IMG/VR virus record: IMGVR_UViG_3300033149_007449
Location: 1 to 45,953 of that record
DNA length: 45,953 nucleotides
DNA from: a virus
Reading direction: 5' to 3' (one strand)
The notes under the pieces are model-generated. The model was given only the letters and a program-made list of their open reading frames with translations, was not told where the DNA came from and searched no databases. Each line of letters opens with the position of its first letter. The stretch's first letter is position 1. Of this stretch, positions 2,885-45,953 are shown in pieces. The position numbers and the translations under genes were made by a program.

Positions 2885-3769
2885 ATGAATTTAGAAAAAT
2901 GGACGATTCAAGATCTCGAGAATGAGTATCTTGAAGAAAAATTCAGAAGAACACAAAAACCTGTTGATAAATGGCGAGGATCTGATATGGGATCTTGTTT
3001 TAGAAAAAGAATCTATGCTCGTCAAGGAGTACAACCGACTGAAACATTAGATGAGAGAACAAGGAGAGTTCTTGATACAGGTGATATTTTTCACTGGAAA
3101 TATCAGAATTTTCTAAAAAGAATTGGAATTCTTGTAGCAAAAGAAATTGAAATAGTAAATAAAGAATATAATTATATTGGACATTTTGATGCCCTTGTAG
3201 GAGGAAAACCTAAAGTAGAAAAAAAACATTTTGAGTTTATAGATAAACAGACAGGAGAGAAAAAATTCAATGAAAAAATGTATAACTGGACTATCAAAAG
3301 GATGAAAAAAATTAAAGAACTTCCTCTTCTCTTATACGATTTCAAAACACAGCATTCACAAAGTTTCTATTATTTAGAAAAACAAGGTCCTCAAAAAGAG
3401 CATGTTTATCAAGTAGCAAGTTATCTAACTTTCATTGATAAAAAGAAATATCCAGTTAATCAAGGGAGAATTCTCTATATTTCAAAAGATGATTCAAGAT
3501 TACTAGAGTTTACTGTAGAATTTAATAAGAAGATGGAACAAAAAATTAAGGATGAATTAAAAGAATTACAGAGATATTGGGATGAAAAAAAACTTCCTGA
3601 TAAACTTCCTGATGTAGAAAACCAATCAGGTAAATTATCACCTAACTGGAGATGTAGATTTTGTCCGTATCTAACTCATTGTAAAGGTGAACAATGGTAT
3701 AAAAAAACAATGATAAAAACTGAATATCTCAACAAAAAATATGCCACAGAAAATAAAAAGTCTTCCTAA
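2885..3769 (+). CDS. PD-(D/E)XK nuclease, Cas4/RecB-like with probable Fe-S cluster
   Basis: The 294-residue protein shows the RecB/Cas4 nuclease motifs in order: H70 in GDIFHW, D102 in YNYIGHFDALV, the D152-x-K154 pair in YDFKTQ, and the QxxxY motif at Q176-Y180 (VYQVASY). C38 near the N-terminus and C257, C260 and C266 near the C-terminus (CRFCPYLTHC) have the spacing of the four Fe-S ligands in Cas4 and AddB-like exonucleases. A role in end processing during recombination or replication is likely. It overlaps the next gene by 29 nt. There is no nearby cas1, cas2 or CRISPR array, so the Cas4 similarity is only structural. Confidence 0.8.
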   Translation: MNLEKWTIQDLENEYLEEKFRRTQKPVDKWRGSDMGSCFRKRIYARQGVQPTETLDERTRRVLDTGDIFHWKYQNFLKRIGILVAKEIEIVNKEYNYIGHFDALVGGKPKVEKKHFEFIDKQTGEKKFNEKMYNWTIKRMKKIKELPLLLYDFKTQHSQSFYYLEKQGPQKEHVYQVASYLTFIDKKKYPVNQGRILYISKDDSRLLEFTVEFNKKMEQKIKDELKELQRYWDEKKLPDKLPDVENQSGKLSPNWRCRFCPYLTHCKGEQWYKKTMIKTEYLNKKYATENKKSS

Positions 3770-4748
3770 GTTTCAAATAGGGAGTGATATAGAATATCTC
3801 TTTATTAGAAGAGGAGAACCTATTCATGCTTCAAGCGCTGTCGCCGCTGAGTATCATGGTAATGTAGGATATGATCATGGTGGAAAAGTTGGAGAAATCA
3901 GAGCAGCACCTTCCTCTGATAACAATATTGAAATTCACATCAAAAATATTGAAAGTACAATTAGAACTATTGTAGAAGGAGGAAGATTACGTGAAGGAGT
4001 TGAAATAAATGCAAGTCATAAACAAAGCTATCCCCCTTGTGGAGGACATATTCATTTTTCTATTAAATCATCAAACGAGATTGAGAAGTGTTTATACAAT
4101 CTTAATTATTGGTTAGCACTAACAGTTCAACCTTTATTTCCTAAACAGGTATTTCTCACAAGGGTAAAATCATCAGATTATGGACTTCTTAGTAATCATA
4201 GAACGCAACCACATGGGTTCGAATATAGAACATTACCATCATTCCTCTTTGACAAAGAAATAACTCAAGGAATTATTGCTCTAGCTTACGCTATTGTTCA
4301 ACTAACTCTAATAAATCAATTAAAAATCAGAAAAGAAGCTCATGACCTAGAATGGATTGAGAAAGTTAATCATTGGTATTATAATTATAATACCTGGAAA
4401 TTAAAAGATATCAGAGAACAAAACATTAGAACAATACTTAAAAAAGGTCAATTAGGAGGGTTACTAAAGTATATTTATCCACTCTTTGAAGCGATAAAAG
4501 AGAATAGAAAATACTCAGGTGATATCGCTGAAGGGTGGAAAATGGATTATAATTATTATGTGTTCAATAGTGGGGATCAAAATCAATACCCTACCATCTA
4601 CGCAGACGCAACCGAATCACAGAATATTCAATTTCCGCCCGTTGTTCCACGACCTTCTGCTGTCCCATCAATACAGAGGGCTCAAAGCATCCGGACTGAT
4701 AGCCGTCCCGGAACAACAGAATCTTCACAAACAACTTCAAACTGGTAA
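3741..4748 (+). CDS. COOH-NH2 amidoligase (phiEco32-like type 2)
   Basis: Residues 11-175 carry the amidoligase signature: GSDIEY (14-19), GYDHGGKVGEIRAAP (43-57), GGHIHF (101-106) and HGFEYRTLPSF (158-168). These glutamine-synthetase-fold enzymes use ATP to form amide bonds between a carboxylate and an amine, on peptides or small molecules. phiEco32-like phages pair the enzyme with a class II amidotransferase, as here. The last 60 residues are Ser/Thr/Pro/Gln-rich and lie entirely within a 191-nt overlap with the next gene in another frame, so they are probably an overprinted tail rather than part of the fold. Confidence 0.78.
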   Translation: MPQKIKSLPKFQIGSDIEYLFIRRGEPIHASSAVAAEYHGNVGYDHGGKVGEIRAAPSSDNNIEIHIKNIESTIRTIVEGGRLREGVEINASHKQSYPPCGGHIHFSIKSSNEIEKCLYNLNYWLALTVQPLFPKQVFLTRVKSSDYGLLSNHRTQPHGFEYRTLPSFLFDKEITQGIIALAYAIVQLTLINQLKIRKEAHDLEWIEKVNHWYYNYNTWKLKDIREQNIRTILKKGQLGGLLKYIYPLFEAIKENRKYSGDIAEGWKMDYNYYVFNSGDQNQYPTIYADATESQNIQFPPVVPRPSAVPSIQRAQSIRTDSRPGTTESSQTTSNW

Positions 4749-5436
4749 AGTGTTCGCATATAAAAAAGATGTTACAGCAACAGAATTCTTGAAACTAAAA
4801 AAAGTAAGAAAAATCTTAGATAACTCTTTAGAATTAGTTGTTGGTCATTGTCGCTATCCTACAAAGGGTGATGAAAAATTCAATATTAACAACCATCCTT
4901 TCGTTGATAAAAGTTTAGTTCTAGTTCATCAAGGAACAGTTTGGAATGATGATTTACTAGCAAAACAGTTTGGTATTAAGAAAAAAGGAGAAACAGATTC
5001 ATGGATTATTATTCAATTGATAAATCATTTTCTAGGACAAGGAAATACTCTAATAAGATCTATCGCTAAGACTAATTATTGCTTGAGAGGGTCTTGGGCT
5101 TGTGCTCTAATAGATAAAAAACAGCCAGATGAGATATATTTATTCTGTCATGAAAATTCAATAACAGTGTTCTATCTTCCTGAGAAAAACATTTATGTTT
5201 TCTCAACAGATAGAAAAAAATTAGAAGAAGTAATTACAGAGAAAAAAGTATATTACGGTATTTTTAAAAGTTCACAATTACCTGAAATTGCTGAATATAC
5301 TGTTGAAGAAGATCATTGTTTACTCTTGAACAATGAACCAAGATTATGGAAACTACCAGAACCATTACAATGGTGGAACTGGAAAAAAAATAAAGGTCGA
5401 CAAAATAATAATCTAGCTCTAGTTGAAATAAGATAA
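4558..5436 (+). CDS. Class II glutamine amidotransferase (Ntn hydrolase)
   Basis: Starting at the ATG at 4558 gives MCSIVGI, placing the catalytic cysteine at position 2 as in all class II amidotransferases (normally MCGIVG). Further family motifs follow: YRGLKASG (39-46), GHCRYPTKG (96-104), NHPF, LVHQGTVWN (122-130) and ETDS. The 292-residue enzyme should release ammonia from glutamine for a partner. The partner could be the overlapping amidoligase, or, by analogy with Gat-QueC fusions in other phages, a 7-deazaguanine amidation step, since queD begins 0.8 kb downstream. An upstream in-frame ATG at 4519 would bury the cysteine and is rejected. Confidence 0.85.
   Translation: MCSIVGIKINTLPSTQTQPNHRIFNFRPLFHDLLLSHQYRGLKASGLIAVPEQQNLHKQLQTGKVFAYKKDVTATEFLKLKKVRKILDNSLELVVGHCRYPTKGDEKFNINNHPFVDKSLVLVHQGTVWNDDLLAKQFGIKKKGETDSWIIIQLINHFLGQGNTLIRSIAKTNYCLRGSWACALIDKKQPDEIYLFCHENSITVFYLPEKNIYVFSTDRKKLEEVITEKKVYYGIFKSSQLPEIAEYTVEEDHCLLLNNEPRLWKLPEPLQWWNWKKNKGRQNNNLALVEIR
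5392..5400 (+). promoter_or_regulatory. AAAGGTCGA element 46 nt before the start at 5438
   Basis: The element lies in the 3' end of the amidotransferase coding sequence and is followed by A/T-rich sequence to the ATG at 5438. Confidence 0.45.
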
Positions 5437-6208: not shown

Positions 6209-6637
6209 ATGTTTGTCCTTAAGTATAGAGATCATTTTGATGCTGCGCATCAATTGAAGAGCACCCCTTCTTTGAAAACAGAAAAATGTTTGAACTTTCA
6301 TGGTCATAGATGGGAAGTTGAAATCACTTTACAGGCAGCAAAGTTAAGAGATGGTATGGTCATTGACTTTGAAGAACTGAAAAGGATTGTTAAAAGCTAT
6401 GATCATACAAACTTGAATAAAAAGTTTCATAATCCTACCGCTGAGAATATAGCACAAGAAATCTGCAAAAGAATAAAAACAATAATTAGAGAACAGAGAC
6501 GAAACTTCATCACTGAAATTATTGTAAAAATTTCTGAATCTCCAGGTAATTCTGTTATATTTAATTCATATACTAGATTTCTATCATCTTCCTCTGCAGA
6601 TTCATTACTACTTGCTTCTGATCAAAGTTCTCAATAA
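6209..6637 (+). CDS. queD: QueD, 6-carboxy-5,6,7,8-tetrahydropterin synthase
   Basis: QueD converts dihydroneopterin triphosphate to 6-carboxytetrahydropterin, the second step from GTP to preQ0. Zinc ligands are visible as H14, H31 and H33 (FDAAHQL, NFHGHRWEVEI), with catalytic C27, the D65-H66 pair in YDHTNLN and E110 in ISESPGNSVIF. GMVIDFEELK and NPTAENIAQEI complete the family pattern. The last 20 or so residues form a Ser-rich extension absent from typical QueD. It starts two bases after the sigma-like gene and ends three bases before queE, so the que genes form one transcription unit. Confidence 0.93.
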   Translation: MFVLKYRDHFDAAHQLKSTPSLKTEKCLNFHGHRWEVEITLQAAKLRDGMVIDFEELKRIVKSYDHTNLNKKFHNPTAENIAQEICKRIKTIIREQRRNFITEIIVKISESPGNSVIFNSYTRFLSSSSADSLLLASDQSSQ

Positions 6638-6640
6638 AAC

Positions 6641-7321
6641 ATGGCAAAACTTCCAATAGTTGAAACATTTAAATCAATTCAAGGAGAAGCCCTCTCAATA
6701 GGGAGACCTGCCTTTTTTCTTAGATTAGCTGGTTGTAACCTAGATTGTAAGTATTGCGATACCAGATACGCCCGAAAACCAAGCGAGATAAAAGATATCA
6801 AAGATATCGTTATGGAAATTAAGGAAGCTTCGACAAAATTAGTAGTAGTAACAGGAGGAGAGCCGCTTCTGTATAAAAGACAACTTAGAACATTGATGCA
6901 ATTCTTTATAGGTATGGAATTTGAAATTGAAACAAATGGAACCTTAGAACCAATTGATATAAGTAGATTTAAAGATTATTATTTAGAGAATTCAATTAGA
7001 TATAATGTTAGTCCTAAACTAGGTTCTTCAAATAATCTAAGAAGATATAGAATAAAACCAAGAATTCTAAGAAAGTTTGTTATTGAAACAGATTCTATCT
7101 TTAAATTCGTTGTTCAAACAGATGAAGATTGGGAAGAAATGAAGAAATTGATAAAAAAAATTAATATTCCACAAAATCGAGTATGGGTAATGCCAGAAGG
7201 CATAACCAATAAAGAATTAAGAAATCATGGAAGATACTTTATTAACAAAATCATATCAGAAGGATACTCATATTCCCCTCGGTTGCAAATCTTTCTATGG
7301 GGAAAAAGAAGAAAGGTATAA
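6641..7321 (+). CDS. queE: QueE, 7-carboxy-7-deazaguanine synthase (radical SAM)
   Basis: The radical SAM cluster motif C32-x3-C36-x2-C39 lies in GCNLDCKYCDT, preceded by the QueE N-terminus VETFKSIQGEALSIGRPAFF. GGEP at 72-75 binds the SAM amino group. The C-terminus (VWVMPEG, YSPRLQIFLWGKRR) matches QueE through to the last residues. The enzyme rearranges 6-carboxytetrahydropterin into 7-carboxy-7-deazaguanine. Its final 95 nt overlap the start of queC; the QueE side of the overlap is the conserved one. Confidence 0.94.
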   Translation: MAKLPIVETFKSIQGEALSIGRPAFFLRLAGCNLDCKYCDTRYARKPSEIKDIKDIVMEIKEASTKLVVVTGGEPLLYKRQLRTLMQFFIGMEFEIETNGTLEPIDISRFKDYYLENSIRYNVSPKLGSSNNLRRYRIKPRILRKFVIETDSIFKFVVQTDEDWEEMKKLIKKINIPQNRVWVMPEGITNKELRNHGRYFINKIISEGYSYSPRLQIFLWGKRRKV

Positions 7322-7994
7322 GAAAATTGTTGTCATACTCTCGGGAGGGATGGATTCGACAACAATGCTTTATGATTTGATAGATCAAAACTATAATGTT
7401 GTAAGTGTTCTTACTTTTAACTATGGTCAAAGACATTTGAGAGAGATTAACTCAGCATCAGTTATCGCTGAAAACTTAGAGTTAGAACATCATATTGTTG
7501 ATCTTTCAAGTATCAGAGAATTATTGAAAGGTTCAGCTCTCACAGATGATATTAATGTTCCAGAAGGATACTATAAAGAAGAAACAATGAAGCTTACAGT
7601 TGTTCCTAATAGAAACGCAATTATGCTTTCAATAGCTGTAGGACACGCTATTTCAAAAGGAGCGCAATTTGTTGCGTATGCAGCTCACTCAGGAGATCAT
7701 GCCATTTATCCAGATTGTAGAAAAGAATTTGTTGAAAAGTTTTCTTCTGTTTCAGAGATAGCTGATTATCATCCAGTAAAAATACTAGCTCCTTATATAG
7801 ATATGGATAAGATAGAAATTCTTAAGAGAGGTCTACAATTAGGTGTTCCTTACGATTTAACCTGGACTTGCTACAAAGGAGGAAAAAAAGCATGTGGGAA
7901 GTGTGGAGCTTGTAGAGAGCGCCTTGAGGCATTTGAGAAGAATAGAGTTGAAGATCCATTAGAATATGAGATAAAGGTTGATAAAAATAATTAA
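7227..7994 (+). CDS. queC: QueC, 7-cyano-7-deazaguanine (preQ0) synthase
   Basis: QueC uses ATP and ammonia to turn 7-carboxy-7-deazaguanine into preQ0. The PP-loop SGGMDS is at 39-44 and the zinc site is C215, C223, C226, C229 (WTCYKGG, ACGKCGAC). Body motifs FNYGQRH, VPNRNAIM and HSGDHAIYPDCR all match the family. The only in-frame ATG is at 7227, giving about 30 residues ahead of the usual start and a 95-nt overlap with queE; a non-ATG start nearer YKKIVVILSGG is possible. No amidotransferase domain is fused to it. Confidence 0.94.
   Translation: MEDTLLTKSYQKDTHIPLGCKSFYGEKEERYKKIVVILSGGMDSTTMLYDLIDQNYNVVSVLTFNYGQRHLREINSASVIAENLELEHHIVDLSSIRELLKGSALTDDINVPEGYYKEETMKLTVVPNRNAIMLSIAVGHAISKGAQFVAYAAHSGDHAIYPDCRKEFVEKFSSVSEIADYHPVKILAPYIDMDKIEILKRGLQLGVPYDLTWTCYKGGKKACGKCGACRERLEAFEKNRVEDPLEYEIKVDKNN
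7973..7981 (+). promoter_or_regulatory. AAAGGTTGA variant element 36 nt before the start at 8009
   Basis: A one-base variant of the recurrent AAAGGTCGA, located in the last codons of queC and exactly 36 nt before the ATG of the first small ORF of the repeat cassette. Confidence 0.45.
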
Positions 7995-8002
7995 CCCAAC
8001 CA

Positions 8003-8035
8003 AACCCTATGAAGAAACAAAAGAAAATTAAAAGA
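8003..8035. repeat. 33-bp direct repeat, copy 1
   Basis: The 33 bases spanning the ATG at 8009 are identical to 8276-8308 around the ATG at 8282. Shorter relatives of the AACC(C/T)TATGA core recur near 8088, 8167 and 8449. Confidence 0.9.
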
Positions 8036-8122
8036 AAAAAGAAAATAGTGAGGTTTTTTCGTTCAAACCGACCAAAAAAACTAAATAAACCTTATGAAGA
8101 AAGAAAAATTAGAAAAATGTAA
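8009..8122 (+). CDS. Very basic 37-aa peptide
   Basis: An open frame starting in the 33-bp repeat and encoding a 37-residue peptide in which more than half the residues are Lys or Arg (MKKQKKIKRKKKIVRFFRS). It may be a real nucleic-acid-binding peptide or a remnant produced when the repeat recombined, since its first nine residues are shared with the protein starting at 8282 and its end (PYEERK) echoes that protein's end (TYEERK). It overlaps the next small frame by 29 nt. Confidence 0.4.
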   Translation: MKKQKKIKRKKKIVRFFRSNRPKKLNKPYEERKIRKM

Positions 8123-8273
8123 AAAATTAGTAGATGCCATTTGTTCTGATGAAAGTGGGGCAAATAAACCTTATGATTGGTTCGTCAAAAAATGGGCATT
8201 GGAAGTATATCAACTTTTGTTAGACGAAAGAGAGGAAACCTTAAAAGAGGTAATTAAAAAACTTAAAATCTAA
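8094..8273 (+). CDS. Hypothetical small protein, 59 aa
   Basis: A 59-residue frame beginning MKKEKLEKCKKLVDAICSDE and ending in a charged helix. It has the composition and start context of the neighbouring genes (CCTTATGAAGAAA). The central part (NKPYDWFVKKWALEVYQLLLDERE) is compatible with a folded helical protein. No family was recognised. It sits between queC and the aminotransferase in a region of short repeats. Confidence 0.5.
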   Translation: MKKEKLEKCKKLVDAICSDESGANKPYDWFVKKWALEVYQLLLDEREETLKEVIKKLKI

Positions 8274-8275
8274 AT

Positions 8276-8308
8276 AACCCTATGAAGAAACAAAAGAAAA
8301 TTAAAAGA
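8276..8308. repeat. 33-bp direct repeat, copy 2
   Basis: Identical to 8003-8035, 273 bp away, again spanning a start codon (8282). Confidence 0.9.
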
Positions 8309-8476
8309 TACTTAATCAGCACTAACCGATTATTTGAAGAACTGCCTTTTTATCAAATAAGAGATTTGAAACCGAGCGAAAAAGGAAAGAGTTCAGATTA
8401 TTGGGAAGGATATACGAAGGCAGTAATAGAATTAACTAATTATTTAAAAACCTATGAAGAAAGAAAGGTCGAATAA
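8282..8476 (+). CDS. Hypothetical small protein, 64 aa
   Basis: The protein shares its first nine residues with the 37-aa peptide at 8009 because both start in the 33-bp repeat. The remainder (YLISTNRLFEELPFYQIRDL, then DYWEGYTKAVIELTNYLK) looks like an ordinary small helical protein. Not recognised. The stop codon lies just after an AAAGGTCGA element that precedes the aminotransferase. Confidence 0.5.
   Translation: MKKQKKIKRYLISTNRLFEELPFYQIRDLKPSEKGKSSDYWEGYTKAVIELTNYLKTYEERKVE
8464..8472 (+). promoter_or_regulatory. AAAGGTCGA element 38 nt before the aminotransferase start
   Basis: The element overlaps the end of the 64-aa gene and begins 38 nt before the ATG at 8502. Everything between is A/T. 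Confidence 0.6.
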
Positions 8477-8501
8477 AAAATAAATAATTAAAATAAAAAT
8501 T

Positions 8502-9590
8502 ATGAAAGTACCATTCGTAAATTGGAAATTACATTATTCAAAATATAAAGATGAAGTAGATAAAGCTATTCAAGATACTTTAACCCGAGGCGATCTAATT
8601 CAGAGGCAGGATCATAATATCTTTGAAAAGAATTTTGCTGAATATATTGGAACACGATATGCTCGAGGTCTTAATTCTGGAACTGATGCACTTTATCTTT
8701 CCTTGTGGGCATCAGGAATAAGAAGAGGTGATGAAGTAATAACTGTTTCTCATACTTTTATCGCTACTATTGCTGCTATCTGCCAAATTGGAGCAACACC
8801 AGTACTAATTGATGTGAAAGAAAACTACTTAATGGATACTAGTAAAATTGAAGAAGCAATCAGTGAGAAAACTAAAGCCATTATTCCTGTTCATTACAAT
8901 GGAAGAATGTGTGATATGGAAACTATTGAAAAAATAGCAGATAAATATCATTTAAGAATAATTGAAGATGCTTGTCAAGCATTAGGTGTAACAGATAAAA
9001 AAGGAAGAAAAGCTGGTTCAATTGGAGATACAGGATGTTTCAGTTTTTATCCTTCAAAAGTACTACCTTGTTGTGGAGATGGCGGAGCTATTACCACCAA
9101 TGATCCTGTTATAGCTGAAAAGGTTCATCTCTTAAGAGATCATGGGAGAGCTACAAAAACTCAAACAGTTTGTTTAGGAATGAATTCAAGATTAGACAAT
9201 ATTCAAGCTGCAATTCTTAATGTTAAAATGAAGTATCTAGAAGAATATAGAAATAGAAAGAGAGAAATTGCTCTAGCATATAATGAAGGATTAAAAGATG
9301 TTAAAGAAGTTATTCTTGTAGGTGATGATGCTCATGAAAATTATGTTATCAGAGCTCAGAATAGAGATAAATTATTCGAATATCTTAAAGAACAAGAAGT
9401 TGAAACACAGATTCACGAACCAGAACCAAATCATTTCATTTCTGAAGTTAAAGAAAAAGCTCGTTTAATGGATTTATCATTTACAGAACAGTTAGCAAAA
9501 GAAGTAATAACTCTTCCTATGAATCCAGAAATGGAAAATTGGCAAGTAGATTATGTTATTGAGAAGATCAAAGAATTCTATAAAAAATAG
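8502..9590 (+). CDS. DegT/DnrJ/EryC1/StrS-family PLP sugar aminotransferase
   Basis: The 362-residue protein has the DegT fold: GLNSGTDALYLSL (57-69), the PLP-contacting VSHTFIATIAA, IIEDACQALG (153-162) and the Schiff-base lysine K186 in FYPSKVLPCCGDGGAI. Members transfer an amino group from glutamate to a keto-sugar nucleotide. It opens a six-gene block of sugar and methyl transferases inserted between queC and folE. An AAAGGTCGA element starts 38 nt upstream. Possible jobs are making an amino-sugar for DNA, virion or host-surface decoration. Confidence 0.88.
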   Translation: MKVPFVNWKLHYSKYKDEVDKAIQDTLTRGDLIQRQDHNIFEKNFAEYIGTRYARGLNSGTDALYLSLWASGIRRGDEVITVSHTFIATIAAICQIGATPVLIDVKENYLMDTSKIEEAISEKTKAIIPVHYNGRMCDMETIEKIADKYHLRIIEDACQALGVTDKKGRKAGSIGDTGCFSFYPSKVLPCCGDGGAITTNDPVIAEKVHLLRDHGRATKTQTVCLGMNSRLDNIQAAILNVKMKYLEEYRNRKREIALAYNEGLKDVKEVILVGDDAHENYVIRAQNRDKLFEYLKEQEVETQIHEPEPNHFISEVKEKARLMDLSFTEQLAKEVITLPMNPEMENWQVDYVIEKIKEFYKK

Positions 9591-10209
9591 TAGATACTGG
9601 AAGAAAAGAAAGTTAAATGATAAAAACAGAGATTGGGAAACTAACACAGCAAAGAACTGGATAGATGAGTATTGGAAAAGTAGAAATCATCCTCATCGTC
9701 AAGTAATACTTAACACACTTACTGATTTATTTCCTTTTGATAGTTTACTTGAGGTAGGATGTAATTGTGGACCGAATTTATCTCTAATTCAAAAGAGATT
9801 TCCTTCAGTAAAACTAGTAGGAGTAGATATCAATAGAAAAGCAATTCTGGAAGCACATAAAAGACTTTCGAATGTGGTTTTGCATCGATGGAGAGCTGAT
9901 AAATTAGCTTTTTCAAATAAAATATTTGACATTTTATTAACTGACGCTCTGCTGATTTATATTGAACCTAGAGAAATCAGAAAAGTTATTGAAGAATTTA
10001 TTAGAGTTACTAAGAAAGCAATGGTTTTCTGCGAATGGAACACTTTTGGTTCAAAGTTAGGTGAAAAAATCTATGATCATTGGTCAAGAGATTATGTAAA
10101 ACTACTCAATGATTACAACATAGATGTGCAGTTATTGAAGCTTACAGAAAAAGACTGGCCTGGTGAAAAATGGTCAAGAGTAGGTTACATCATTAAAGCT
10201 GTATTATGA
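9553..10209 (+). CDS. SAM-dependent methyltransferase (class I)
   Basis: Motif I is LLEVGCNCGPN (65-75) with the acidic ribose-binding residue D92 in LVGVDINRKAIL; FDILLTDALLIYIEP is the post-motif strand. It resembles pseudaminic-acid or sugar-pathway methyltransferases by context. The only in-frame ATG is at 9553, overlapping the aminotransferase by 38 nt and giving a basic N-terminal 20 residues. It ends in an ATGA overlap with the next gene. The substrate is unknown. Confidence 0.8.
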   Translation: MLLRRSKNSIKNSRYWKKRKLNDKNRDWETNTAKNWIDEYWKSRNHPHRQVILNTLTDLFPFDSLLEVGCNCGPNLSLIQKRFPSVKLVGVDINRKAILEAHKRLSNVVLHRWRADKLAFSNKIFDILLTDALLIYIEPREIRKVIEEFIRVTKKAMVFCEWNTFGSKLGEKIYDHWSRDYVKLLNDYNIDVQLLKLTEKDWPGEKWSRVGYIIKAVL

Positions 10210-11075
10210 AATACAAAATTCGTTGTTCATCAACAGTTCACAATTTCAGAGATAAAATCTTGAAATATTGGAAGCTTGAAGAAGCTACATATCCTAGAGA
10301 TAAATACAATCCGGTTGTTTTCTTTGGAATGTATCACATAGGAGATTGGAAGAATTTTTTCAGATATCGTGGAAAGAAAGCTATCTTTTGGTGTGGAGGA
10401 GATATTCTAAACTTCAAAAGAAATTGGTTTTTTGGAGATGGTCGAGCACGTAATATTTCAAAGATATTGAATTGGATTCCTTGGAATAAAATTCTGCTTT
10501 GTTTGTCAGGATCCAAAGTTGATCACTATGTTGAAAATGAAGCTGAATATAGACAATTAAAAGAATTAAGAGTTAATGCTAAGATTTATCCTTCTTTCTT
10601 AGATAGTGTAGATAATTTTCCAGTAAGTTTTAAACCTTCTTCCACGCCACATGTATTTCTTTGTATGCATAAACATCGTGAAGTTGAATATGGTATTAAA
10701 ACAGTAGAATTGATGTCAAGGAAATTTCCTTATATTGTTTTTCATATTTATGGAATTGATAATTACGACGGATTGAATGGTAGAAAAAATATTGTATTTC
10801 ATGGTCAAGTTTCTGAAAAACAATTTAATGAAGAGATAAAAAATTATCAAGCTGGCTTAAGATGTAATGAATATGATGGTTTCTCTGAAGTGGTAATAAA
10901 ATCTGTACTTCTAGGACAATATCCTATTTCAAGAATTGAATATCCTCATGTTTGGTCTTACACCACAAACACTGAATTAGAGAGTTATCTCTATCGATTA
11001 GCTTATATAAAGCAACCAAATCTTGAAGCCAGAGAATTCTGGTTAAATAACATTAACAAACAACCTTTCTTATGA
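10206..11075 (+). CDS. Glycosyltransferase, probably GT-B
   Basis: A 289-residue protein with a two-domain look. The N-terminal half has FFGMYHIGDWKNF and FWCGGDILN; the C-terminal half has a Rossmann-like start (HVFLCMHKHREVEYGIKTVE), FHGQVSEKQFNEEIKNYQ and GLRCNEYDGFSEVVIKSVLLGQYP. This last segment resembles the sugar-nucleotide-binding E-x7-E region of GT4-like enzymes. Sugar donor and acceptor are unknown. ATGA overlaps on both sides show tight translational coupling with the two methyltransferases. Confidence 0.6.
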   Translation: MKYKIRCSSTVHNFRDKILKYWKLEEATYPRDKYNPVVFFGMYHIGDWKNFFRYRGKKAIFWCGGDILNFKRNWFFGDGRARNISKILNWIPWNKILLCLSGSKVDHYVENEAEYRQLKELRVNAKIYPSFLDSVDNFPVSFKPSSTPHVFLCMHKHREVEYGIKTVELMSRKFPYIVFHIYGIDNYDGLNGRKNIVFHGQVSEKQFNEEIKNYQAGLRCNEYDGFSEVVIKSVLLGQYPISRIEYPHVWSYTTNTELESYLYRLAYIKQPNLEAREFWLNNINKQPFL

Positions 11076-11566
11076 AATATCAATGGTACAAAATCAAATG
11101 GTTTGACATTAAAAGATGGCAATTACTTCTAAAATATTTTAAAGGTGGAAAATTAATAGATCTAGGTTGTTACTATTCTTTTATTCCTTGGATGGCTAAG
11201 ATTAAAAAGTCAGAAGCTGAGATCTATTCAATAGATTGGGTTCCTAAAAAAACAAGTTTTTCTAGTGATTTCTTTGATTATGCTGTAGCTGGACAAGTTA
11301 TTGAACACCTTAAAGAACCTGAAGTGTTTGTTAAAGAAGTTTATAGAATACTAAAACCAGGAGGGGTATTTGTTCTATCTTGTCCTTACAAAGAGACAGA
11401 AAAAGGTGAAGTAGATATAAATCATGTATGGAAAGGAATTACTGAAGAAGATATTAGAGATTTATTGAAAGATTTTAAAAAAGTTAAGATAAGAATTATT
11501 GGCTCTCAATTTTTCCCACTTTACAAATATAATTTTGAACACATTATAGCATATGCCTGGAAATAA
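11072..11566 (+). CDS. SAM-dependent methyltransferase (type 11)
   Basis: A short 164-residue class I methyltransferase. Motif I is reduced to LIDLGCYYSF (28-37), while the Methyltransf_11 core FDYAVAGQVIEHLKEPEVFVKEVYRILKPGG is clear. The loop after motif I lacks the usual GxG, so SAM binding may be altered. It overlaps the glycosyltransferase upstream by four bases and the rhamnosyltransferase-like gene downstream by 14. Confidence 0.78.
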   Translation: MKYQWYKIKWFDIKRWQLLLKYFKGGKLIDLGCYYSFIPWMAKIKKSEAEIYSIDWVPKKTSFSSDFFDYAVAGQVIEHLKEPEVFVKEVYRILKPGGVFVLSCPYKETEKGEVDINHVWKGITEEDIRDLLKDFKKVKIRIIGSQFFPLYKYNFEHIIAYAWK

Positions 11567-12473
11567 ATTCGCTTTTCACATTGTTTATATCCCGTTCACA
11601 GGAGTAGGTCTATATGCTGGTTTTAGAAGTCAAGAATGGCTTGAATATAGAATCAAGATTTTCAAAGAATATACATTGAAAAGTCTTCTAAATCAAACAG
11701 ATAAAAGATTCTTAACTTGGCTTTCATTCAGACCTGAAGAATACAATAATCCAGCAGTAATTGAATTAGAAAGATATCTTCAGAAATTCAAAGATTTCCC
11801 AGTAATAATGACTTTTCATGGTTTAATATATTGGGATGATAAATTTCCAACAAAGATACTTCCAAGAATAGTTAATTTTCTTAGAATATGTAGAAATTGT
11901 TTATTAAGAGAGAAAACACTTAGAAAATTACCTGGTGCTTTATTAGAATCTTTGAAAAATAAAAATAAAGATCTTAGAAAAAATGTTCAAGACTCTTTAG
12001 CAGCTTTACAATCTGTTTATCCTAAAAAAGGTATTGATGTTGTTTTTCTCACAAGGATTGATTCAGATGATATGTTTCATAAGAAAGCTATTAGTGATAT
12101 CAAGAAACTTGCTAGAAAACCAGCTCTAAGTTTTAGAAAAGGTTATATCTATGATAGAAACACTAAACAACTAGCTGAATGGTTACCAACAGAAAATCCT
12201 CCTTTCCATACCATTATTTTTCCTGTTGAAGTATTCTTTGATGCTGACAGGTATCTTGAATATATGAATGGTTTTGAAACTCATGAAGATATTCCTAAAA
12301 TCTTTAATACTCAAAGATTACCTGATTACAGATATTGTGTATTAATTCATAGCCAGAAGAACCAAATCAGTACTATTTGGAATCACCCTTTTAGAGGAAA
12401 AATTATTAAAAATAAAAAAATTCTAAGAGATTTCGGTTTGGAGGCGAACTCGTACGAGGGGAAAGAAGAATGA
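11553..12473 (+). CDS. Putative rhamnosyltransferase-family glycosyltransferase (GT-A like)
   Basis: The 306-residue protein matches the putative rhamnosyltransferase family in layout: HIVYIPFTGVG at the start, LLNQTDKRFLTWLSF, and the metal-binding RIDSDDM at about 170 as the DxD-type motif. LSFRKGYIYD and HSQKNQISTIWNHPF are typical acceptor-side segments. The final ten codons form the 5' arm of the structured RNA at 12444-12532, so the C-terminus (GLEANSYEGKEE) may be shaped by RNA rather than by protein need. The actual sugar is not known. Confidence 0.7.
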   Translation: MPGNKFAFHIVYIPFTGVGLYAGFRSQEWLEYRIKIFKEYTLKSLLNQTDKRFLTWLSFRPEEYNNPAVIELERYLQKFKDFPVIMTFHGLIYWDDKFPTKILPRIVNFLRICRNCLLREKTLRKLPGALLESLKNKNKDLRKNVQDSLAALQSVYPKKGIDVVFLTRIDSDDMFHKKAISDIKKLARKPALSFRKGYIYDRNTKQLAEWLPTENPPFHTIIFPVEVFFDADRYLEYMNGFETHEDIPKIFNTQRLPDYRYCVLIHSQKNQISTIWNHPFRGKIIKNKKILRDFGLEANSYEGKEE

Positions 12474-12532
12474 AAAGGCGTAATTCCGCCGTAGCCGAAA
12501 GGTGTAGTTCTCTTTTCTCTCGGCGAGTTGGC
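12444..12532 (+). ncRNA. Compact structured RNA, three-way junction
   Basis: A G+C-rich island between two sugar genes. Bases 12444-12466 pair with 12511-12532: GCGAACTCG with CGAGTTGGC (one mismatch), then GAGGGGAAAGA with TCTTTTCTCTC using some G-U pairs. The closed region holds two hairpins: GGCG at 12477-12480 with CGCC at 12487-12490, and TAGCC at 12492-12496 with GGTGTA at 12501-12506 around a GAAA tetraloop. The upstream stop codon (12471-12473) is inside it. There is no U-tract. It could be a riboswitch-like leader, a ribozyme-like element or a free RNA; it matched no family I know. Confidence 0.55.
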
Positions 12533-12549
12533 TGAAATAATATAAAGAG

Positions 12550-13251
12550 ATGAAAACAAAAACTATGGTTCAAAAAAAATCTTTAATAATAGGAAAAGGA
12601 GAGGTAGGGAATGCTCTCTATAAAGTAATAGGAGGTGAAATAAGAGATAAAGAAGATAATTCTAGAAATAAGTCCCTAGATTCTTATGAGATAATTCATA
12701 TTTGTTTTCCTTTTTCAGAACAATTTATAGATCAAGTAAAACAATATCAGAAACTCTACAGACCAAAATATACTATAATTCACAGTACAGTACCTGTTGG
12801 AACATCAAGATTGTGTGATGCAATCCATTCACCGATAATAGGGATCCATCCTTTCTTAGAGCAAGGATTGAAAACTTTTGTTAAATTCTTAGGCGGAGAA
12901 AAAGCTTCAGAAATTGCTGATTATTTTAGAAGAAAAGGGTTGAGAGTTTATCTAACTAATAAACCAGAAACTACAGAGTTAATGAAAATCCTTTCTACTA
13001 CTAAATATGGTGTAGATATTGAATATACAAAAGAAGTTAGGAGATTGTGCGATAAATATAAAGTTCCTTTTGAAATGTGGACTTTATGGACAGAGAACTA
13101 CAATCAAGGATATGAAAAACTTGGCTACCCAGAATATAAAAGACCTAATCTAGTTCCTATTATGAAAAAGATCGGTGGACATTGTGTATTAGAAAACAGT
13201 AAGTATATACAAATAAATGACATTAGACCAAAAATTTCAAAGGTCGATTAA
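12550..13251 (+). CDS. NAD-binding sugar-nucleotide dehydrogenase-like protein
   Basis: A Rossmann N-terminus (SLIIGKGEVGNALY, GxGxxG-type) is followed by features of the UDP-glucose/GDP-mannose dehydrogenase superfamily: the strand IIHICFPFSEQF, HSTVPVGTS at about 78-86 and a helix with TTELMKILSTTKYG. At 233 residues it is shorter than UDP-glucose 6-dehydrogenase (about 400) and lacks the C-terminal UDP-sugar domain and the usual catalytic cysteine motif, so the reaction is uncertain. ATG at 12574 is an alternative start. Its stop codon abuts an AAAGGTCGA element. Confidence 0.65.
   Translation: MKTKTMVQKKSLIIGKGEVGNALYKVIGGEIRDKEDNSRNKSLDSYEIIHICFPFSEQFIDQVKQYQKLYRPKYTIIHSTVPVGTSRLCDAIHSPIIGIHPFLEQGLKTFVKFLGGEKASEIADYFRRKGLRVYLTNKPETTELMKILSTTKYGVDIEYTKEVRRLCDKYKVPFEMWTLWTENYNQGYEKLGYPEYKRPNLVPIMKKIGGHCVLENSKYIQINDIRPKISKVD
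13239..13247 (+). promoter_or_regulatory. AAAGGTCGA element 38 nt before the start at 13277
   Basis: The last codons of the preceding gene (AAG GTC GAT TAA) form the element. It begins 38 nt before the ATG at 13277. Confidence 0.6.
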
Positions 13252-13276
13252 AATAAAAACTAATAACTCTAATATT

Positions 13277-13951
13277 ATGGCTAAGTTAAAAACTCAACAA
13301 TTCAGAGAAATGGCAAAGCATTGGTTACAGAAAAATGGTTGGAAGATACTAGATACAATAAAAACAGAAAAACAGAGATGGTATGCAAATGATAAACAGA
13401 GAACTCAATTAGATGATTTGATTGAAGAAAAAGGATTGGATACTTTCCCTTATTTTCCTCATTTCTTGATTGAAAAAGATGGTTATAAGTTTATTGTTGC
13501 TTTATTCAATAAAGAAGATTATTTCTATTCTAAATCGCTAGAACAGTATGTTACTGGTTTTGATTATTGGAAATATGAGTTTCTAAAAGAGTTTCAGGCA
13601 AAAATAGGGGTTCCTGCTGGAATTATTTTCTATAGTGAAGAAGTAAAAGAATTTATTTTTAGACAACTTGATGAATTACCAATCCCTATTATCTGGCAGA
13701 GATCACAGTGCTTAGAAAAACAGTATATGAGACACCCGCTAGTACTAAATTGTGTTGAATGTCGAAAACAACAAAGATATACATTTAGAAAATGTATAAA
13801 ACGAACAAATAAAAAAAGGCCGATGGCTGTTTGGGATGTGAAATTATTCAATCCCAAAACTAACTTTCAAATTAGATTATTTAATTATGAACAAAAAGAA
13901 AATGGAGAAGTTAATAGAAAAACTCTTGAAGGAGTTAGAGCTGGATCTTGA
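13277..13951 (+). CDS. Hypothetical protein, 224 aa, with possible Cys cluster
   Basis: Not recognised. The N-terminal half (REMAKHWLQKNGWKILDTIK, then FPHFLIEKDGYKFIVALFNK) has the alternation of a restriction-endonuclease-like or DUF fold, but no catalytic motif is certain. LNCVECRKQQRYTFRKC near residue 160 is a C-x2-C-x9-C arrangement that could bind zinc. I prefer the ATG at 13277, next to the AAAGGTCGA element, over 13217, which would overlap the upstream gene. It overlaps folE by 65 nt, which ties it to the modification block. Confidence 0.6.
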   Translation: MAKLKTQQFREMAKHWLQKNGWKILDTIKTEKQRWYANDKQRTQLDDLIEEKGLDTFPYFPHFLIEKDGYKFIVALFNKEDYFYSKSLEQYVTGFDYWKYEFLKEFQAKIGVPAGIIFYSEEVKEFIFRQLDELPIPIIWQRSQCLEKQYMRHPLVLNCVECRKQQRYTFRKCIKRTNKKRPMAVWDVKLFNPKTNFQIRLFNYEQKENGEVNRKTLEGVRAGS

Positions 13952-14462
13952 AGATCCTAACTTGAAAGAAACTCCTCAAAGGGTAACTAAAGCGTTACTA
14001 TATGCCACTAGAGGATACAGAGAGGAAGCTCGTAAAGAAATTGAACAGAGATTCTCAACTAAGTTTCCGACAAAGTACAGAGGAATGGTAGTTCAGAAAG
14101 ATCTTCATGTTTTTAGTATGTGCCCTCATCACTTGAAAGATATTGAGTACTATATCAGTTTTGGAATCATCTATAGAAAAGAAGCGCTCGGATTGTCAAT
14201 GATCTATAGAATAATCAAGTTATTGAGCGCAAGATTAGTTCTTCAAGAAGATTTAACTCAAGATATAGTTAATGTTTTTAATAAACATTTAGAACCAAGA
14301 GGTATTGCTGTTGTTATTAAAGGATATCATAACTGTATGAAATCAAGAGGGATTGAGCAGAGTATTCCAACAATTACTACTGAGCTAACTGGTCCTTTTG
14401 AAGAAGATGCTAAAACTAGACAAGAATTCTTTAATACAATACGTTATACATGGAAGACTTAA
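13887..14462 (+). CDS. folE: FolE, GTP cyclohydrolase I
   Basis: FolE converts GTP to dihydroneopterin triphosphate, the first step towards preQ0. The zinc and catalytic residues are C79, H81 and H82 (FSMCPHHLKD, CPHH in place of the usual CEHH) and H148 and C150 in GYHNCMKSRGI. LGLSMIYRIIKLLSARL, Q120-E121 (LQEDLTQDI) and LEPRGIAVVIK are also diagnostic. At 191 residues it is slightly shorter than E. coli FolE. It overlaps the previous gene by 65 nt and the YkgJ-family gene by 13 nt. Having its own FolE frees the phage from host pterin supply. Confidence 0.93.
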   Translation: MNKKKMEKLIEKLLKELELDLEDPNLKETPQRVTKALLYATRGYREEARKEIEQRFSTKFPTKYRGMVVQKDLHVFSMCPHHLKDIEYYISFGIIYRKEALGLSMIYRIIKLLSARLVLQEDLTQDIVNVFNKHLEPRGIAVVIKGYHNCMKSRGIEQSIPTITTELTGPFEEDAKTRQEFFNTIRYTWKT

Positions 14463-15127
14463 AACTTTTACACCAGATAATGAGATTATCTAAAGAAGAT
14501 GTCGAAATAGAGTTATCTCAAAAGAACAAATCTGGTAAGAAAAAAATAATTAAATACAAGAAACCTAAACGAGTGAGTATATCTGTTAATTTTTTCAGAT
14601 ATGGAGCTTGTCAGCGTTGTGGACGAAGTTGTAATGTTGGTTTTAATCTATATTGGACTGAAAATGAGTACTATGATTTACCACGAAAACTAAAAGAAAA
14701 ACTAGTTGCTGTTCCATTTAAAATCCAAGGAAAAGAAAAATATCTATGGATGTATAGAAACCCTACTAATACTCCTCGATGTGATTGGGTTCAATACAAT
14801 AAAGAAATTGCTACTTGTACAATTCATGAGAGTAAACCTATTCATTGTGCACTTCCTCCGATTCAGATAGATCAAAAACGAGAAAGTACAATTGTAACAA
14901 AAAGATTATTTGGAAGAAATTTTAAATTCGGATGCTTGATAGAATTCACAGAGTTTAATTATCAACATTTTAAAAACTGGGATTTACCACAATTACAAAG
15001 ATTGTGGTTTGCATCTCAGTATCTTGAAATACCTTCTCATCTTGAGGAGATTATTTCTCTACTTAGTTCGACAGATTGGACAGAGGGTAATCTCCCGGAA
15101 GAGAATATAGTAATCTATGACAAATGA
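14450..15127 (+). CDS. YkgJ-family cysteine cluster protein
   Basis: The conserved zinc/iron-chelating cluster is clear: C54-x2-C57-x3-C61 in YGACQRCGRSC, then C111, C123 and C133 in RCDWVQY, ATCTIHESKPIHCALPP, matching the family's C-x-I-y-x-x-R/K-P-x-x-C ending. The biochemical role of most members is unknown; some relatives methylate flagellin lysines. Its placement, overlapping folE by 13 nt and queF by 11 nt, makes a role in the 7-deazaguanine pathway or in metal supply to it plausible. The 225-residue length is larger than the minimal domain. Confidence 0.8.
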   Translation: MEDLKLLHQIMRLSKEDVEIELSQKNKSGKKKIIKYKKPKRVSISVNFFRYGACQRCGRSCNVGFNLYWTENEYYDLPRKLKEKLVAVPFKIQGKEKYLWMYRNPTNTPRCDWVQYNKEIATCTIHESKPIHCALPPIQIDQKRESTIVTKRLFGRNFKFGCLIEFTEFNYQHFKNWDLPQLQRLWFASQYLEIPSHLEEIISLLSSTDWTEGNLPEENIVIYDK

Positions 15128-15590
15128 CAAAATAAAATACGTTAAAAAAATAGAAGATTTCCCTGATAGAGAATTAGAAGAAAGAATTCGTTATGGTTTA
15201 GAATATGATATTCCTCACAAAATTAGACCAGTTCCTTTCTTAGGAAGAAGCGAACAGATAACTGAATATGTATTCGATGAGCTCATAGCACGATGTCCTA
15301 TGACTGAAATAAAAGATCAGTATAGAGTTATAATTAGATTTATCCCCGATAAATTCATTCCTGAGCTTAAGAGTTTGAAACTCTATTTTTGGGACTATGA
15401 AGAAGAAAAAATTCCAATCAGTCATGAACATCTAGCTGATAAAATCTACCAAGAATTCAAGAAAACTATTAGTCCTAAAGATTTATTAGTTAAACTAGAA
15501 GTTGCGGGGCGAGGAGAAATATTTACAACTATCAGGGTAGGAAATTATTCTCTTGAAAGATTCAAACCAAGACTCTTTAAGAATTTATAA
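15117..15590 (+). CDS. queF: QueF-like 7-cyano-7-deazaguanine reductase
   Basis: QueF reduces the nitrile of preQ0 to the aminomethyl group of preQ1 with NADPH. The thioimide-forming cysteine is C60 (ARCPMT), with D67 seven residues later as in bacterial QueF, the NADPH motif ELKSLKLY at 83-90 and the substrate-contacting H103-E104 (SHEH). The 157-residue size fits the single-domain type. QueF-like amidinotransferases of archaea keep the Cys and Asp but not the NADPH motif, so retention here favours a reductase. The motif's second residue is Leu rather than Ser. Confidence 0.82.
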   Translation: MTNDKIKYVKKIEDFPDRELEERIRYGLEYDIPHKIRPVPFLGRSEQITEYVFDELIARCPMTEIKDQYRVIIRFIPDKFIPELKSLKLYFWDYEEEKIPISHEHLADKIYQEFKKTISPKDLLVKLEVAGRGEIFTTIRVGNYSLERFKPRLFKNL

Positions 15591-15709
15591 TGTCTAAGTT
15601 TGAAACAATTATTCAAATTATAAAGGTCGTAATAATGATTCTTGCATCCATTACAGGATTGTATGGATTATATTTGTTAGAACAAATATTAGAAATTCTA
15701 TCTAAATGA
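15590..15709 (+). CDS. Small membrane protein, 39 aa
   Basis: A 39-residue frame starts on the last base of the queF stop and overlaps the dpdA start in an ATGA junction, so it fills the gap exactly. Residues 7-36 (IIQIIKVVIMILASITGLYG...) are one long hydrophobic helix. Function unknown. An AAAGGTCGT element at 15622-15630 lies inside it. Confidence 0.6.
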   Translation: MSKFETIIQIIKVVIMILASITGLYGLYLLEQILEILSK

Positions 15710-16701
15710 AAATATTTTTTGCAGTCGGGGCTCGTGAATATCTTTACCTTCTACTTACCTGTGGAGTAAAGAATATTCTATGCTCATTTGCTTATCCTGA
15801 ACCTTTCTTCAGTAAAAAACTACTAAAAAGACACGGGGTTAGATTAATGATAGATTCTGGAGCTTTCACAGCGTGGAGTCAAGGAAGAGAAGTTAAGCTA
15901 GAAGATTATCTGAATTTTATAGAACAAAACAGAGATGTTATTAATGATCAATACATTGTTTGCTTAGATGTTATTCGAGGAGGTAGAACAGATAAACCTA
16001 CTCAAAAAGATTATGATGAAGCAGCAAGATTAGGCCTTGAAAACTACTATAAAATGAAAGAAAGGGGAGTTAAATCAATTCCTGTATTTCATCAAGGAGA
16101 GAATTTTGTCTGGTTAGAAAAAATGATCCAAGAATGTGATTATATCGGAGTTTCTGCTAATAATGATTATTCAGATAGTGTTAAAGATAAATGGTTATAT
16201 GAATGTTTCTATGTTATTAAGAAATCAAAGAAACCTGATATTAAAACTCACGGATTCGGAATAACCTCACCTGCTCTTCTAGCAAAGTATCCTTACACTT
16301 CTGTTGATAGCTCTGCTTGGGCACTTACATCTGCGTTTGGAGCTATTCTAACTCCGTATGGGAGAATTCTAATATCTGAAGGAAAAAATAGTGAAGAAAA
16401 AGCAAAAAGAATGGTTGACCCTAACTTCATAGAGAATCTTCCAGAATATCAAAGAAAGAAAATTATTGATTACATTGAATCATTTGGATTCTCATACCAA
16501 TTAGCAAAGAAAAATTATAAGTATAGAAATATTATCAACATTGATTACTTTTTACAGATGGAAAAGAGATTAACAGAACAACCTACTGTATTCAGTGATC
16601 ATCAACAGCCACTATTTGATTTTCTTGAATGGGATAAAAAAAGGTCGAAAAAACAATTAGAAAGATTCTATCCAGATGAGACGCCTCGAATGTATAGATA
16701 A
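15706..16701 (+). CDS. dpdA: DpdA-like DNA-guanine transglycosylase
   Basis: DpdA is a tRNA-guanine-transglycosylase relative that swaps guanine in DNA for a 7-deazaguanine. MIDSGAFTAWSQG (D50) and THGFGITSPALLAKYPYTSVDSSAWALTSAFG, split here as D201 in SVDSSAW, are hallmarks of phage DpdA and correspond to the two TGT active-site aspartates. CLDVIRGG and IPVFHQGE are further family segments. The 331-residue length fits phage-type DpdA. It closes the queDEC-folE-queF set and is the best single evidence that the pathway serves DNA, not tRNA. It overlaps the next small gene by 26 nt. Confidence 0.9.
   Translation: MKIFFAVGAREYLYLLLTCGVKNILCSFAYPEPFFSKKLLKRHGVRLMIDSGAFTAWSQGREVKLEDYLNFIEQNRDVINDQYIVCLDVIRGGRTDKPTQKDYDEAARLGLENYYKMKERGVKSIPVFHQGENFVWLEKMIQECDYIGVSANNDYSDSVKDKWLYECFYVIKKSKKPDIKTHGFGITSPALLAKYPYTSVDSSAWALTSAFGAILTPYGRILISEGKNSEEKAKRMVDPNFIENLPEYQRKKIIDYIESFGFSYQLAKKNYKYRNIINIDYFLQMEKRLTEQPTVFSDHQQPLFDFLEWDKKRSKKQLERFYPDETPRMYR
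16640..16648 (+). promoter_or_regulatory. AAAGGTCGA element 36 nt before the start at 16676
   Basis: Located in the last part of dpdA, 36 nt ahead of the ATG at 16676. Confidence 0.5.
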
Positions 16702-39043: not shown

Positions 39044-41104
39044 TTACTTAAAAGGAGTTATTTTTTTCATAAATTTTGTAAGCTTTCTAAATGGCGATTT
39101 TTCAGGAACTACTTCAGCTTCTGGAACAACTCTTTGAGGACCAACAAGTGGTGTTATCTTAGCTTCAGCTCTCATTGTCTCTCTTGGAATAGCTCCTTGT
39201 CTCTCACCTTGTTGTTCCATAGTAGGAACAATTAATGGTAATTTAGTAGCTTCTGGAGTTAACCAATTATCAGGAAGCCAATCTTTAGGATCTTTATCGT
39301 AAATCTTTAATAATTGCTTTGCTATTTTAACATAGAGATAAGGCGGCTGAGCTAACATAGGACTAAGAATATTAATCATTTCAAGATCCATTGCTTTATC
39401 TAATTCACGAGATACAACAAGGATAGACTCAGGTATGATTCTAACCACTCCTTCCCATTGTAATCCTTTAGGTTTTATTCTAAAGAATCTTAGATCTTCC
39501 GTTTCAACAAGATTTCCTTTCTCATCTCTTTCTAATCCTAGTTGTACTTCTCTGTAAACTTTAGCAATAAAATTCCCTTCCTCATCTCTTCCATACAGAG
39601 CTGGGTCTCCTTCAACTTCCTTAATATATTCTTCTATTTTTGAAGGTTCTGCTATCTTATAAATCTCCGGAATAGAATATATCATCTGCGTAATGCTAAT
39701 CGTCAGATACGCATCTTCTTCTAATGCTTCAGCAATATTCGCTAAAGGTGTTTTCAATCTTTTTAGAGCTGCTTCCTTAGCTTGCGCTATTTCAAAAGCT
39801 GTTTTTCCTGTTACTTCACCTTCTAGAGGAGGGGTAACAGCTGAAGCATCATCTATATCTTTCTTAAGCATTTCTAATCCTTTCCAAGCTTCGACACCAG
39901 GTCCTGGTACTTCAAGCCATTGAATATCTTTTGGATTAACCACTTGTTTTCCAACACCAGGTCTAATTTTAATATGTCCTGTTTCTTCAAGCATTTCTGT
40001 CGAAGAATAGAAAAACATCTTGTAAATTGAAAGAACTAATTGATCTAGAGTCATATTTCTAACTCTATCAAGCATCTCTTGATCTTGCTTCATTGCTTCA
40101 TGAAGACCTATTCCATAAGGTGATTCAGCGTGTCTTAACATCCAATATGTTTGCCAGCAAGAAAGTTTCTTATTTCCTTGCGAATCTGATATCGGCAAAG
40201 GTTCTATAACCACAGGAACATCATTAGCAATAACCATAAAAAGATCTCTTATTTTATTTTCATAAAAATACACTTCTATAAGATCTTCCTCTTTGAATTT
40301 CTTTTCTTTATTTGACTTAAGAGATGATCTTGTTACACCACCCTTCTGAACATATTTGAATAATTTTCTATCTCCGAATTCTTCTTTAAAAACGTCCCAA
40401 GAATATACTTTTCTCCAGCACCAATCACGAAGAGAAAAATGATTGTTAGGTCTTGCCATATCATCTATCCAACAATTCCAAGGATCAAGATTTTCTCTAA
40501 AAACATCATTGTATTCAGTTATTTCTTTTTCTTCATATACAGACTTATCAGGATTTTCTTCATTGTATTCAACTAGCTGTTTAACTTTTCTTTTAATAAT
40601 TAAAGGATATGTTCTTGCAATTGCCCAGCCATATTTAGCAAGATTGAATATGAATAACTTTAATTGCTGCTTAGATCTAGCTATTTCCCAGTTTCTCTGA
40701 TAGAGATTCTTCATCAGTTTAGTTGAACCTTCATATCTCTTTGAACCAGGTAAAAACACAGCTCCAGGATTTCGATCTACTAAAATTCCTAATGCTGTTT
40801 GAATCTTAATAAAAGGATTTGGTTGTGAATTATCACTTTGCCAATCATCACTTCCAATTGTAGTAAAATGTCCTCTCCATCCTTTTTCATCATCTGTAGC
40901 AACAATTCTTCTTCCTTTAGTTTTTAATCTGTGAGGGATATAATCTTTATCGGCTTGATTCCAGATTTCTTCTAGATTATCTCCAAATACATTTTGTCGG
41001 CTCTCTTTTAATTGACCAATTCTTTTTCTAACAAATTCATAACTTTCCCTTTGTTCTTTTGTAAGGTACTTTGTAATATCTTGTTTTTTTTCTTGTTGTG
41101 GCAT
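39044..41104 (-). CDS. Portal protein
   Basis: At 686 residues, directly downstream of terL, this is the portal. Typical podovirus portal segments are visible: FTTIGSDDWQSDNSQPNPFI, DNLEEIWNQADKDYIPHRLK, ENLDPWNCWIDDMARPNNHF, SPYGIGLHEAMKQDQEMLDR and the helix ITPFK end. The dodecameric portal forms the DNA entry channel and binds terminase. It starts at a TAATG overlap with terL. Confidence 0.82.
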   Translation of the reverse strand: MPQQEKKQDITKYLTKEQRESYEFVRKRIGQLKESRQNVFGDNLEEIWNQADKDYIPHRLKTKGRRIVATDDEKGWRGHFTTIGSDDWQSDNSQPNPFIKIQTALGILVDRNPGAVFLPGSKRYEGSTKLMKNLYQRNWEIARSKQQLKLFIFNLAKYGWAIARTYPLIIKRKVKQLVEYNEENPDKSVYEEKEITEYNDVFRENLDPWNCWIDDMARPNNHFSLRDWCWRKVYSWDVFKEEFGDRKLFKYVQKGGVTRSSLKSNKEKKFKEEDLIEVYFYENKIRDLFMVIANDVPVVIEPLPISDSQGNKKLSCWQTYWMLRHAESPYGIGLHEAMKQDQEMLDRVRNMTLDQLVLSIYKMFFYSSTEMLEETGHIKIRPGVGKQVVNPKDIQWLEVPGPGVEAWKGLEMLKKDIDDASAVTPPLEGEVTGKTAFEIAQAKEAALKRLKTPLANIAEALEEDAYLTISITQMIYSIPEIYKIAEPSKIEEYIKEVEGDPALYGRDEEGNFIAKVYREVQLGLERDEKGNLVETEDLRFFRIKPKGLQWEGVVRIIPESILVVSRELDKAMDLEMINILSPMLAQPPYLYVKIAKQLLKIYDKDPKDWLPDNWLTPEATKLPLIVPTMEQQGERQGAIPRETMRAEAKITPLVGPQRVVPEAEVVPEKSPFRKLTKFMKKITPFK

Positions 41105-45798: not shown

Positions 45799-45953
45799 AC
45801 CTAAACCACGAATGACTGGTAGAGATTGGATGTTTTATCAATCATATTGGGATTATCTAAAACATTGTCTTGAAATTATCAGATATGAATATAAAATTAA
45901 GAGAACTCTCACAGGAGATATTTCTCTTAAAGTAGAATTTTATCGAGAAGGAA
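45770..45953 (+). CDS. rusA: RusA-like Holliday junction resolvase, 5' part (continues at 115-281)
   Basis: Start and first 61 codons of the resolvase described at 1-281. The ATG at 45770 gives MKIVIQGNPRPKPRMTGR, the standard RusA opening. The frame runs off the window end and continues in the same frame at base 115. Confidence 0.88.
   Translation, partial: MKIVIQGNPRPKPRMTGRDWMFYQSYWDYLKHCLEIIRYEYKIKRTLTGDISLKVEFYREG
45840..45953. repeat. Terminal direct repeat, right copy
   Basis: Identical to 1-114; see the left copy. Confidence 0.95.

Follow-up and report, generated by a model that had tools for sequence, protein, structure and literature searches.

A virus record of 45,953 bases from a tailed phage (IMG/VR IMGVR_UViG_3300033149_007449), analysed over its whole length and hereafter called the window, carries a cluster of genes for 7-deazaguanine synthesis and DNA insertion, and raises the question of which modified base this phage places in its DNA. 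The original prediction was that six genes with intact active-site motifs (FolE, QueD, QueE, QueC, QueF and DpdA) lie on one strand, make the phage self-sufficient from guanosine triphosphate (GTP), and yield a base of the preQ1 type rather than preQ0. Family matches and motifs bore out the gene content for all six, and the predicted span of 6209–16701 runs exactly from the first base of queD to the last base of dpdA. However, that reading had omitted nine open reading frames that split the cluster and a further pathway-linked gene at 14450–15127, which encodes a cysteine-cluster protein. We consider it probable, though well short of certain, that the phage encodes a self-contained modification pathway in which preQ1 is further tailored, most likely by methylation.

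The pathway genes are arranged in two blocks on the plus strand, with queD, queE and queC at 6209–7994 and folE, the cysteine-cluster gene, queF and dpdA at 13887–16701. The cluster is not contiguous, as queC and folE are separated by the nine other open reading frames, mostly of sugar or methyltransferase type. QueD (6-carboxytetrahydropterin synthase, 6209–6637) matched PF01242 (E 1.1e-25), phrog_2389 (7e-18) and, just under the cut-off, TIGR03367 (1.1e-23), and the CxxxHGH motif could be read straight from the sequence at residues 27–33, beginning at C27. QueE (7-carboxy-7-deazaguanine synthase, a radical S-adenosylmethionine (SAM) enzyme, 6641–7321) matched phrog_2076 (E 5.8e-52) and has its CX3CX2C motif as CNLDCKYC at residues 32–39. 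QueC (preQ0 synthase, 7227–7994) matched PF06508 (E 3e-66) and TIGR00364 (over the cut-off), with the motifs SGGMDS and CYKGGKKACGKCGAC (C185-x7-CxxCxxC); its start is uncertain, since the domain begins at ~7323 and the sole usual in-frame start codon upstream is at 7227. FolE (GTP cyclohydrolase I, 13887–14462) matched PF01227 (E 1.1e-46) and phrog_2197 (1.4e-46) and contains CPHH at residue 79. Given the family E-values of the six pathway genes, including those reported below for QueF and DpdA, chance matches can be excluded. FolE, QueD, QueE and QueC would together convert GTP to preQ0, and the proposed self-sufficiency from GTP is well supported by the gene content and by phages with comparable gene sets and measured dPreQ1.

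QueF converts preQ0 to preQ1, while the related amidinotransferase QueF-L leads to archaeosine. The reductase signature of QueF consists of a catalytic Cys and Asp, the reduced nicotinamide adenine dinucleotide phosphate (NADPH) motif E(S/L)K(S/A)hK(L/Y)(Y/F/W) and a His-Glu pair, and QueF-L lacks the NADPH motif. The window protein (15117–15590, plus strand), annotated as an NADPH-dependent preQ0 reductase, has C60, D67, ELKSLKLY at residues 83–90 and HE at 103–104. It matched PF14489 (E 1.6e-12; 47.9 bits, above the cut-off of 27.3) and the equivalog model TIGR03139 (E 1.5e-17; 63.5 bits, under the cut-off of 86.9). Because the reductase residues are kept, the predicted product is preQ1, formed with NADPH, and not preQ0 or archaeosine. 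In DNA of the phages Dp-1 and HVTV-1, dPreQ1 has been measured (PMC6884629), and in Vibrio phage 6E351A 15% of deoxyguanosine is in a modified form whose mass, 295 Da, is consistent with dPreQ1 (PMC12028318). These phages have comparable proteins, and together with the QueF residues they make a preQ1-type base a sound prediction. This part of the original prediction stood, but plain preQ1 as the end product is unlikely, because the QueF-linked cysteine-cluster gene adjoining queF suggests a further step.

DpdA (DNA guanine transglycosylase of the phage DpdA1 type, 15706–16701, plus strand) matched phrog_887 (E 1.2e-56) and contains DSGAF at residue 50 and DSS at residue 201. The Pfam model of tRNA-guanine transglycosylase (TGT), PF01702, matched neither this protein nor anything else in the whole record. 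Against a profile built from the DpdA proteins of phages 9g, Dp-1 and Me-ZS1, the window protein scored 204.3 bits and Escherichia coli TGT -1.6 bits. His196 of the 9g protein, which marks this DpdA type and is absent in DpdA2 (PMC6884629), aligned with H182 of the window protein, and D50, D88, H129, H182 and D201 were invariant across 23 homologues. The AlphaFold2 model (predicted local distance difference test (pLDDT) score of 86) matched TGT with a Z score of 21.0 and a root-mean-square deviation of 3.0 over 258 aligned residues. Judged from sequence and model, the window DpdA is to be placed with the phage DNA enzymes, with a TGT fold in common. A grouping with tRNA enzymes had been named beforehand as the result that would speak against DNA modification; the profile comparison places the protein among phage DpdA and apart from E. 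coli TGT. A pattern search with the single window protein, which reaches close relatives only, found no relatives of DpdA in viral contigs.

The gene between folE and queF (14450–15127, plus strand) is intact and encodes a CxxCxxCC-type protein of 225 residues, a candidate preQ1-tailoring enzyme, related to CEPG_00054 of Cellulophaga phage phiSM. It matched phrog_16018 (E 1.8e-8), annotated as of unknown function, and PF03692 with 20.2 bits, without reaching the cut-off of 23. Searching a library of viral models with its own model returned three matches below E 0.001, with lengths that fit the members from Knocker, Va3 and phiSM; the pattern search used for DpdA, with the same reach to close relatives only, gave none in viral contigs. 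A scan of viral contigs with a QueF alignment yielded 214 relatives, of which 80 loci were kept, and the cysteine-cluster family was present in seven of these, mostly adjoining QueF. Because this set had been picked by QueF, the link was also tested in reverse. Of 50,697 phage records, 27 contained the family; these 27 fall into four host groups, and all of them encoded QueF. Phages with the gene include phiSM, Knocker and VH7D. Among 14 viral records fetched by the cysteine-cluster protein alone, QueF was nearby in ten and elsewhere in the record in two; the other two were fragments of 47 kb (no QueC or QueF match) and 14 kb. The family was absent from the QueF-bearing phages Dp-1, HVTV-1, KVP40, Funsized and Mufasa8, and also from phage nt-1, which has preQ0 genes and no QueF. 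The gene thus seems dependent on QueF and QueF independent of the gene, which is the pattern expected of a preQ1-tailoring step.

Two further arrangements of this family were noted in other viral loci and phages. One viral locus with QueF (L044, 9796–11390) contains two cysteine-cluster genes in tandem, possibly a duplication serving two tailoring steps. In three large Vibrio phages (L098, L099 and L100) the gene is located ~20–50 kb from queF, and among the QueF-bearing members of these phages only some have it, making them a natural set in which dPreQ1 can be compared with its derivative.

From this co-occurrence we infer a preQ1-tailoring role for the cysteine-cluster protein, with N-methylase activity as its likeliest form. 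PreQ1, like the lysine side chain, bears a primary amine. The flagellin lysine methylase FliB, which has a similar cysteine motif of the CxxCxxCC type, uses SAM and a [4Fe-4S] cluster to methylate the side-chain amine of lysine (PMC8598068); its substrate is a protein, whereas that of the phage family would be a base. By this analogy, methylation of preQ1 by the 14450–15127 product is a reasoned guess that we regard as somewhat favoured. A dPreQ1 methyltransferase with an unusual fold, DpdM, and methylated dPreQ1 in phages were reportedly described by Cui et al. in 2023. Several points weigh against assigning this role to the window protein. Its equation with DpdM is tentative. The third cluster cysteine, replaced by S60, was missing only in the window protein among 15 aligned members, leaving three of the four, and with this loss the protein may be impaired. 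It matched no NCBIfam model, FliB included, and its structural model had no fold match in the PDB. The latter does not show a new fold, because confidence in the model is only moderate, with a pLDDT of 72.8 and low values in the region of the cysteines.

The stretch between the two blocks contains an island of sugar- or glycan-type genes (8502–13251, plus strand) coding for a DegT aminotransferase, two class-I methyltransferases, two glycosyltransferase-like proteins and a Rossmann-like protein. None of them was found in the 87 que loci examined, which led us to reject a conserved role for them in the pathway; they probably lie outside it. The products of 10206–11075 and 11553–12473 had no phage match, and 11553–12473 had no relative in viral contigs either.

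Other readings of the locus differ in the base that is made or in its destination. If the QueF-like protein were the amidinotransferase QueF-L, the DNA would contain archaeosine (dG+). Most phage QueFs were placed nearer QueF-L by HHpred (PMC6884629), and the window protein has a weak PDB match to QueF-L. Nevertheless, its top PDB sequence matches were QueF, ranking above QueF-L, the ELKSLKLY and HE motifs are intact, whereas a QueF-L would lack the former, and phages so classed had dPreQ1 when measured, which makes archaeosine highly improbable here. The genes might alternatively raise queuosine in host tRNA and leave the phage DNA unmodified, as has been proposed for phages without DpdA (PMC6884629). 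Since the window encodes a DpdA, far from TGT in sequence, and no PF01702 match anywhere, we give this explanation hardly any weight.

If preQ1 is made and inserted into DNA, the remaining alternatives concern what happens to it. Plain dPreQ1 could be the final product, with the cysteine-cluster protein inactive in this phage or otherwise employed. In favour of this are three phages that make dPreQ1 (Dp-1, HVTV-1 and Vibrio phage 6E351A) and the cluster cysteine that is gone from the window copy. On the other hand, the gene is undamaged, its position between folE and queF recurs in related loci, and its product retains six other conserved cysteines (C54, C57, C61, C111, C123 and C133). We therefore regard plain dPreQ1 as a lesser possibility, albeit one with an appreciable chance. 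Hypermodification, in which the inserted sugar-type genes would put a sugar on preQ1 in DNA, is suggested by the content of the island, which lies between queC and folE on the strand of the pathway genes and encodes an aminotransferase, methyltransferases and glycosyltransferase-like proteins. Glycans of the virion or the host surface could account for such genes as well, and with their absence from the other que loci this outcome appears very unlikely. As an iron-sulphur enzyme, the family could also perform an undescribed tailoring of preQ1 other than that of the published DpdM or, jointly with the sugar-type genes, form a larger preQ1 adduct in this virus, a reading that we think improbable.

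The genome is probably complete, because an exact direct repeat of 114 bases is present at both ends of the record (1–114 and 45840–45953). The plus strand carries the replication genes along with the 7-deazaguanine cluster, and the minus strand carries the terminase (41104–42549) and a portal-like protein (39044–41104). We found no tRNA gene in the window, no preQ1 riboswitch up to E 1, no riboswitch above chance, and no nucleotide-level relatives among isolated phages. The nucleoside 2-deoxyribosyltransferase family (PF05014) was matched weakly by the region 45364–45798 (E 1.4e-5, below the cut-off); as far as this match goes, the product of that region could turn free bases into deoxynucleosides. 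At 3741–5436, a phiEco32-type COOH-NH2 ligase (PF14395) is followed by a class-II glutamine amidotransferase (4558–5436, N-terminus MCSIVG), a pair that suggests peptide or cell-wall modification. A split Gat-QueC, or dG+, route through this amidotransferase was considered and rejected, as it did not match Gat-QueC of 9g and is preceded by the COOH-NH2 ligase.

By analogy with the measured relatives, DpdA would replace guanine in finished phage DNA with the preQ1 formed by QueF. The 14450–15127 protein is predicted to modify the aminomethyl group of preQ1 before or after insertion; the likeliest reaction is an N-methylation that uses SAM and an iron-sulphur cluster, and this is the least certain step of the proposal. 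The outcome would be methylated preQ1 in DNA, which may shield it from host restriction enzymes, as extrapolated from those same phages. Whether the cysteine-cluster gene is a marker of methylated preQ1 could be read from the mass of the modified nucleoside in phage DNA, 295 against 309 Da. The window, which belongs to a phage not in culture, contributes a complete set of genes leading from GTP to preQ1 in DNA, and it links to QueF a family of cysteine-cluster proteins with poor annotation.

The gene combination is not rare. FolE, QueE, QueC, QueF and DpdA occurred together within the fetched stretch in 22 of the 80 QueF loci, 12 of which also had QueD in a simple search. Isolated phages with the gene set include Dp-1, phiSM, Funsized, Mufasa8, Knocker and Pan1, with QueE of Pan1 annotated merely as a radical SAM protein. 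The window cluster is a further example of an established system, and the general phenomenon is already known.

Streptococcus phage Dp-1 (NC_015274), in which dPreQ1 makes up ~1.7% of G (PMC6884629), has FolE, QueD, QueE, QueC, QueF and DpdA clustered as in the window, but it carries a gene for the QueT transporter and lacks the cysteine-cluster protein, and the proteins are distant (DpdA 33% identical). Cellulophaga phage phiSM (NC_020860) has all six genes together with CEPG_00054, sited between queF and dpdA; it differs in gene order, in its shorter DpdA (240 aa) and in having no sugar-type insertion. Pseudanabaena phage Pan1 (ON968452) and Mycobacterium phage Knocker (MZ150786) share with the window the Que genes, QueF, a TGT/DpdA protein and the cysteine-cluster gene, which is of YkgJ type and adjoins dpdA. 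Their hosts and gene orders are different, and unlike the window they retain four of four cluster cysteines. The viral contig L065 (IMGVR 3300033991_000248) has the same order of folE, cysteine-cluster gene, queF and dpdA as the window, with QueD, QueE and QueC immediately upstream and no insertion between the two blocks.

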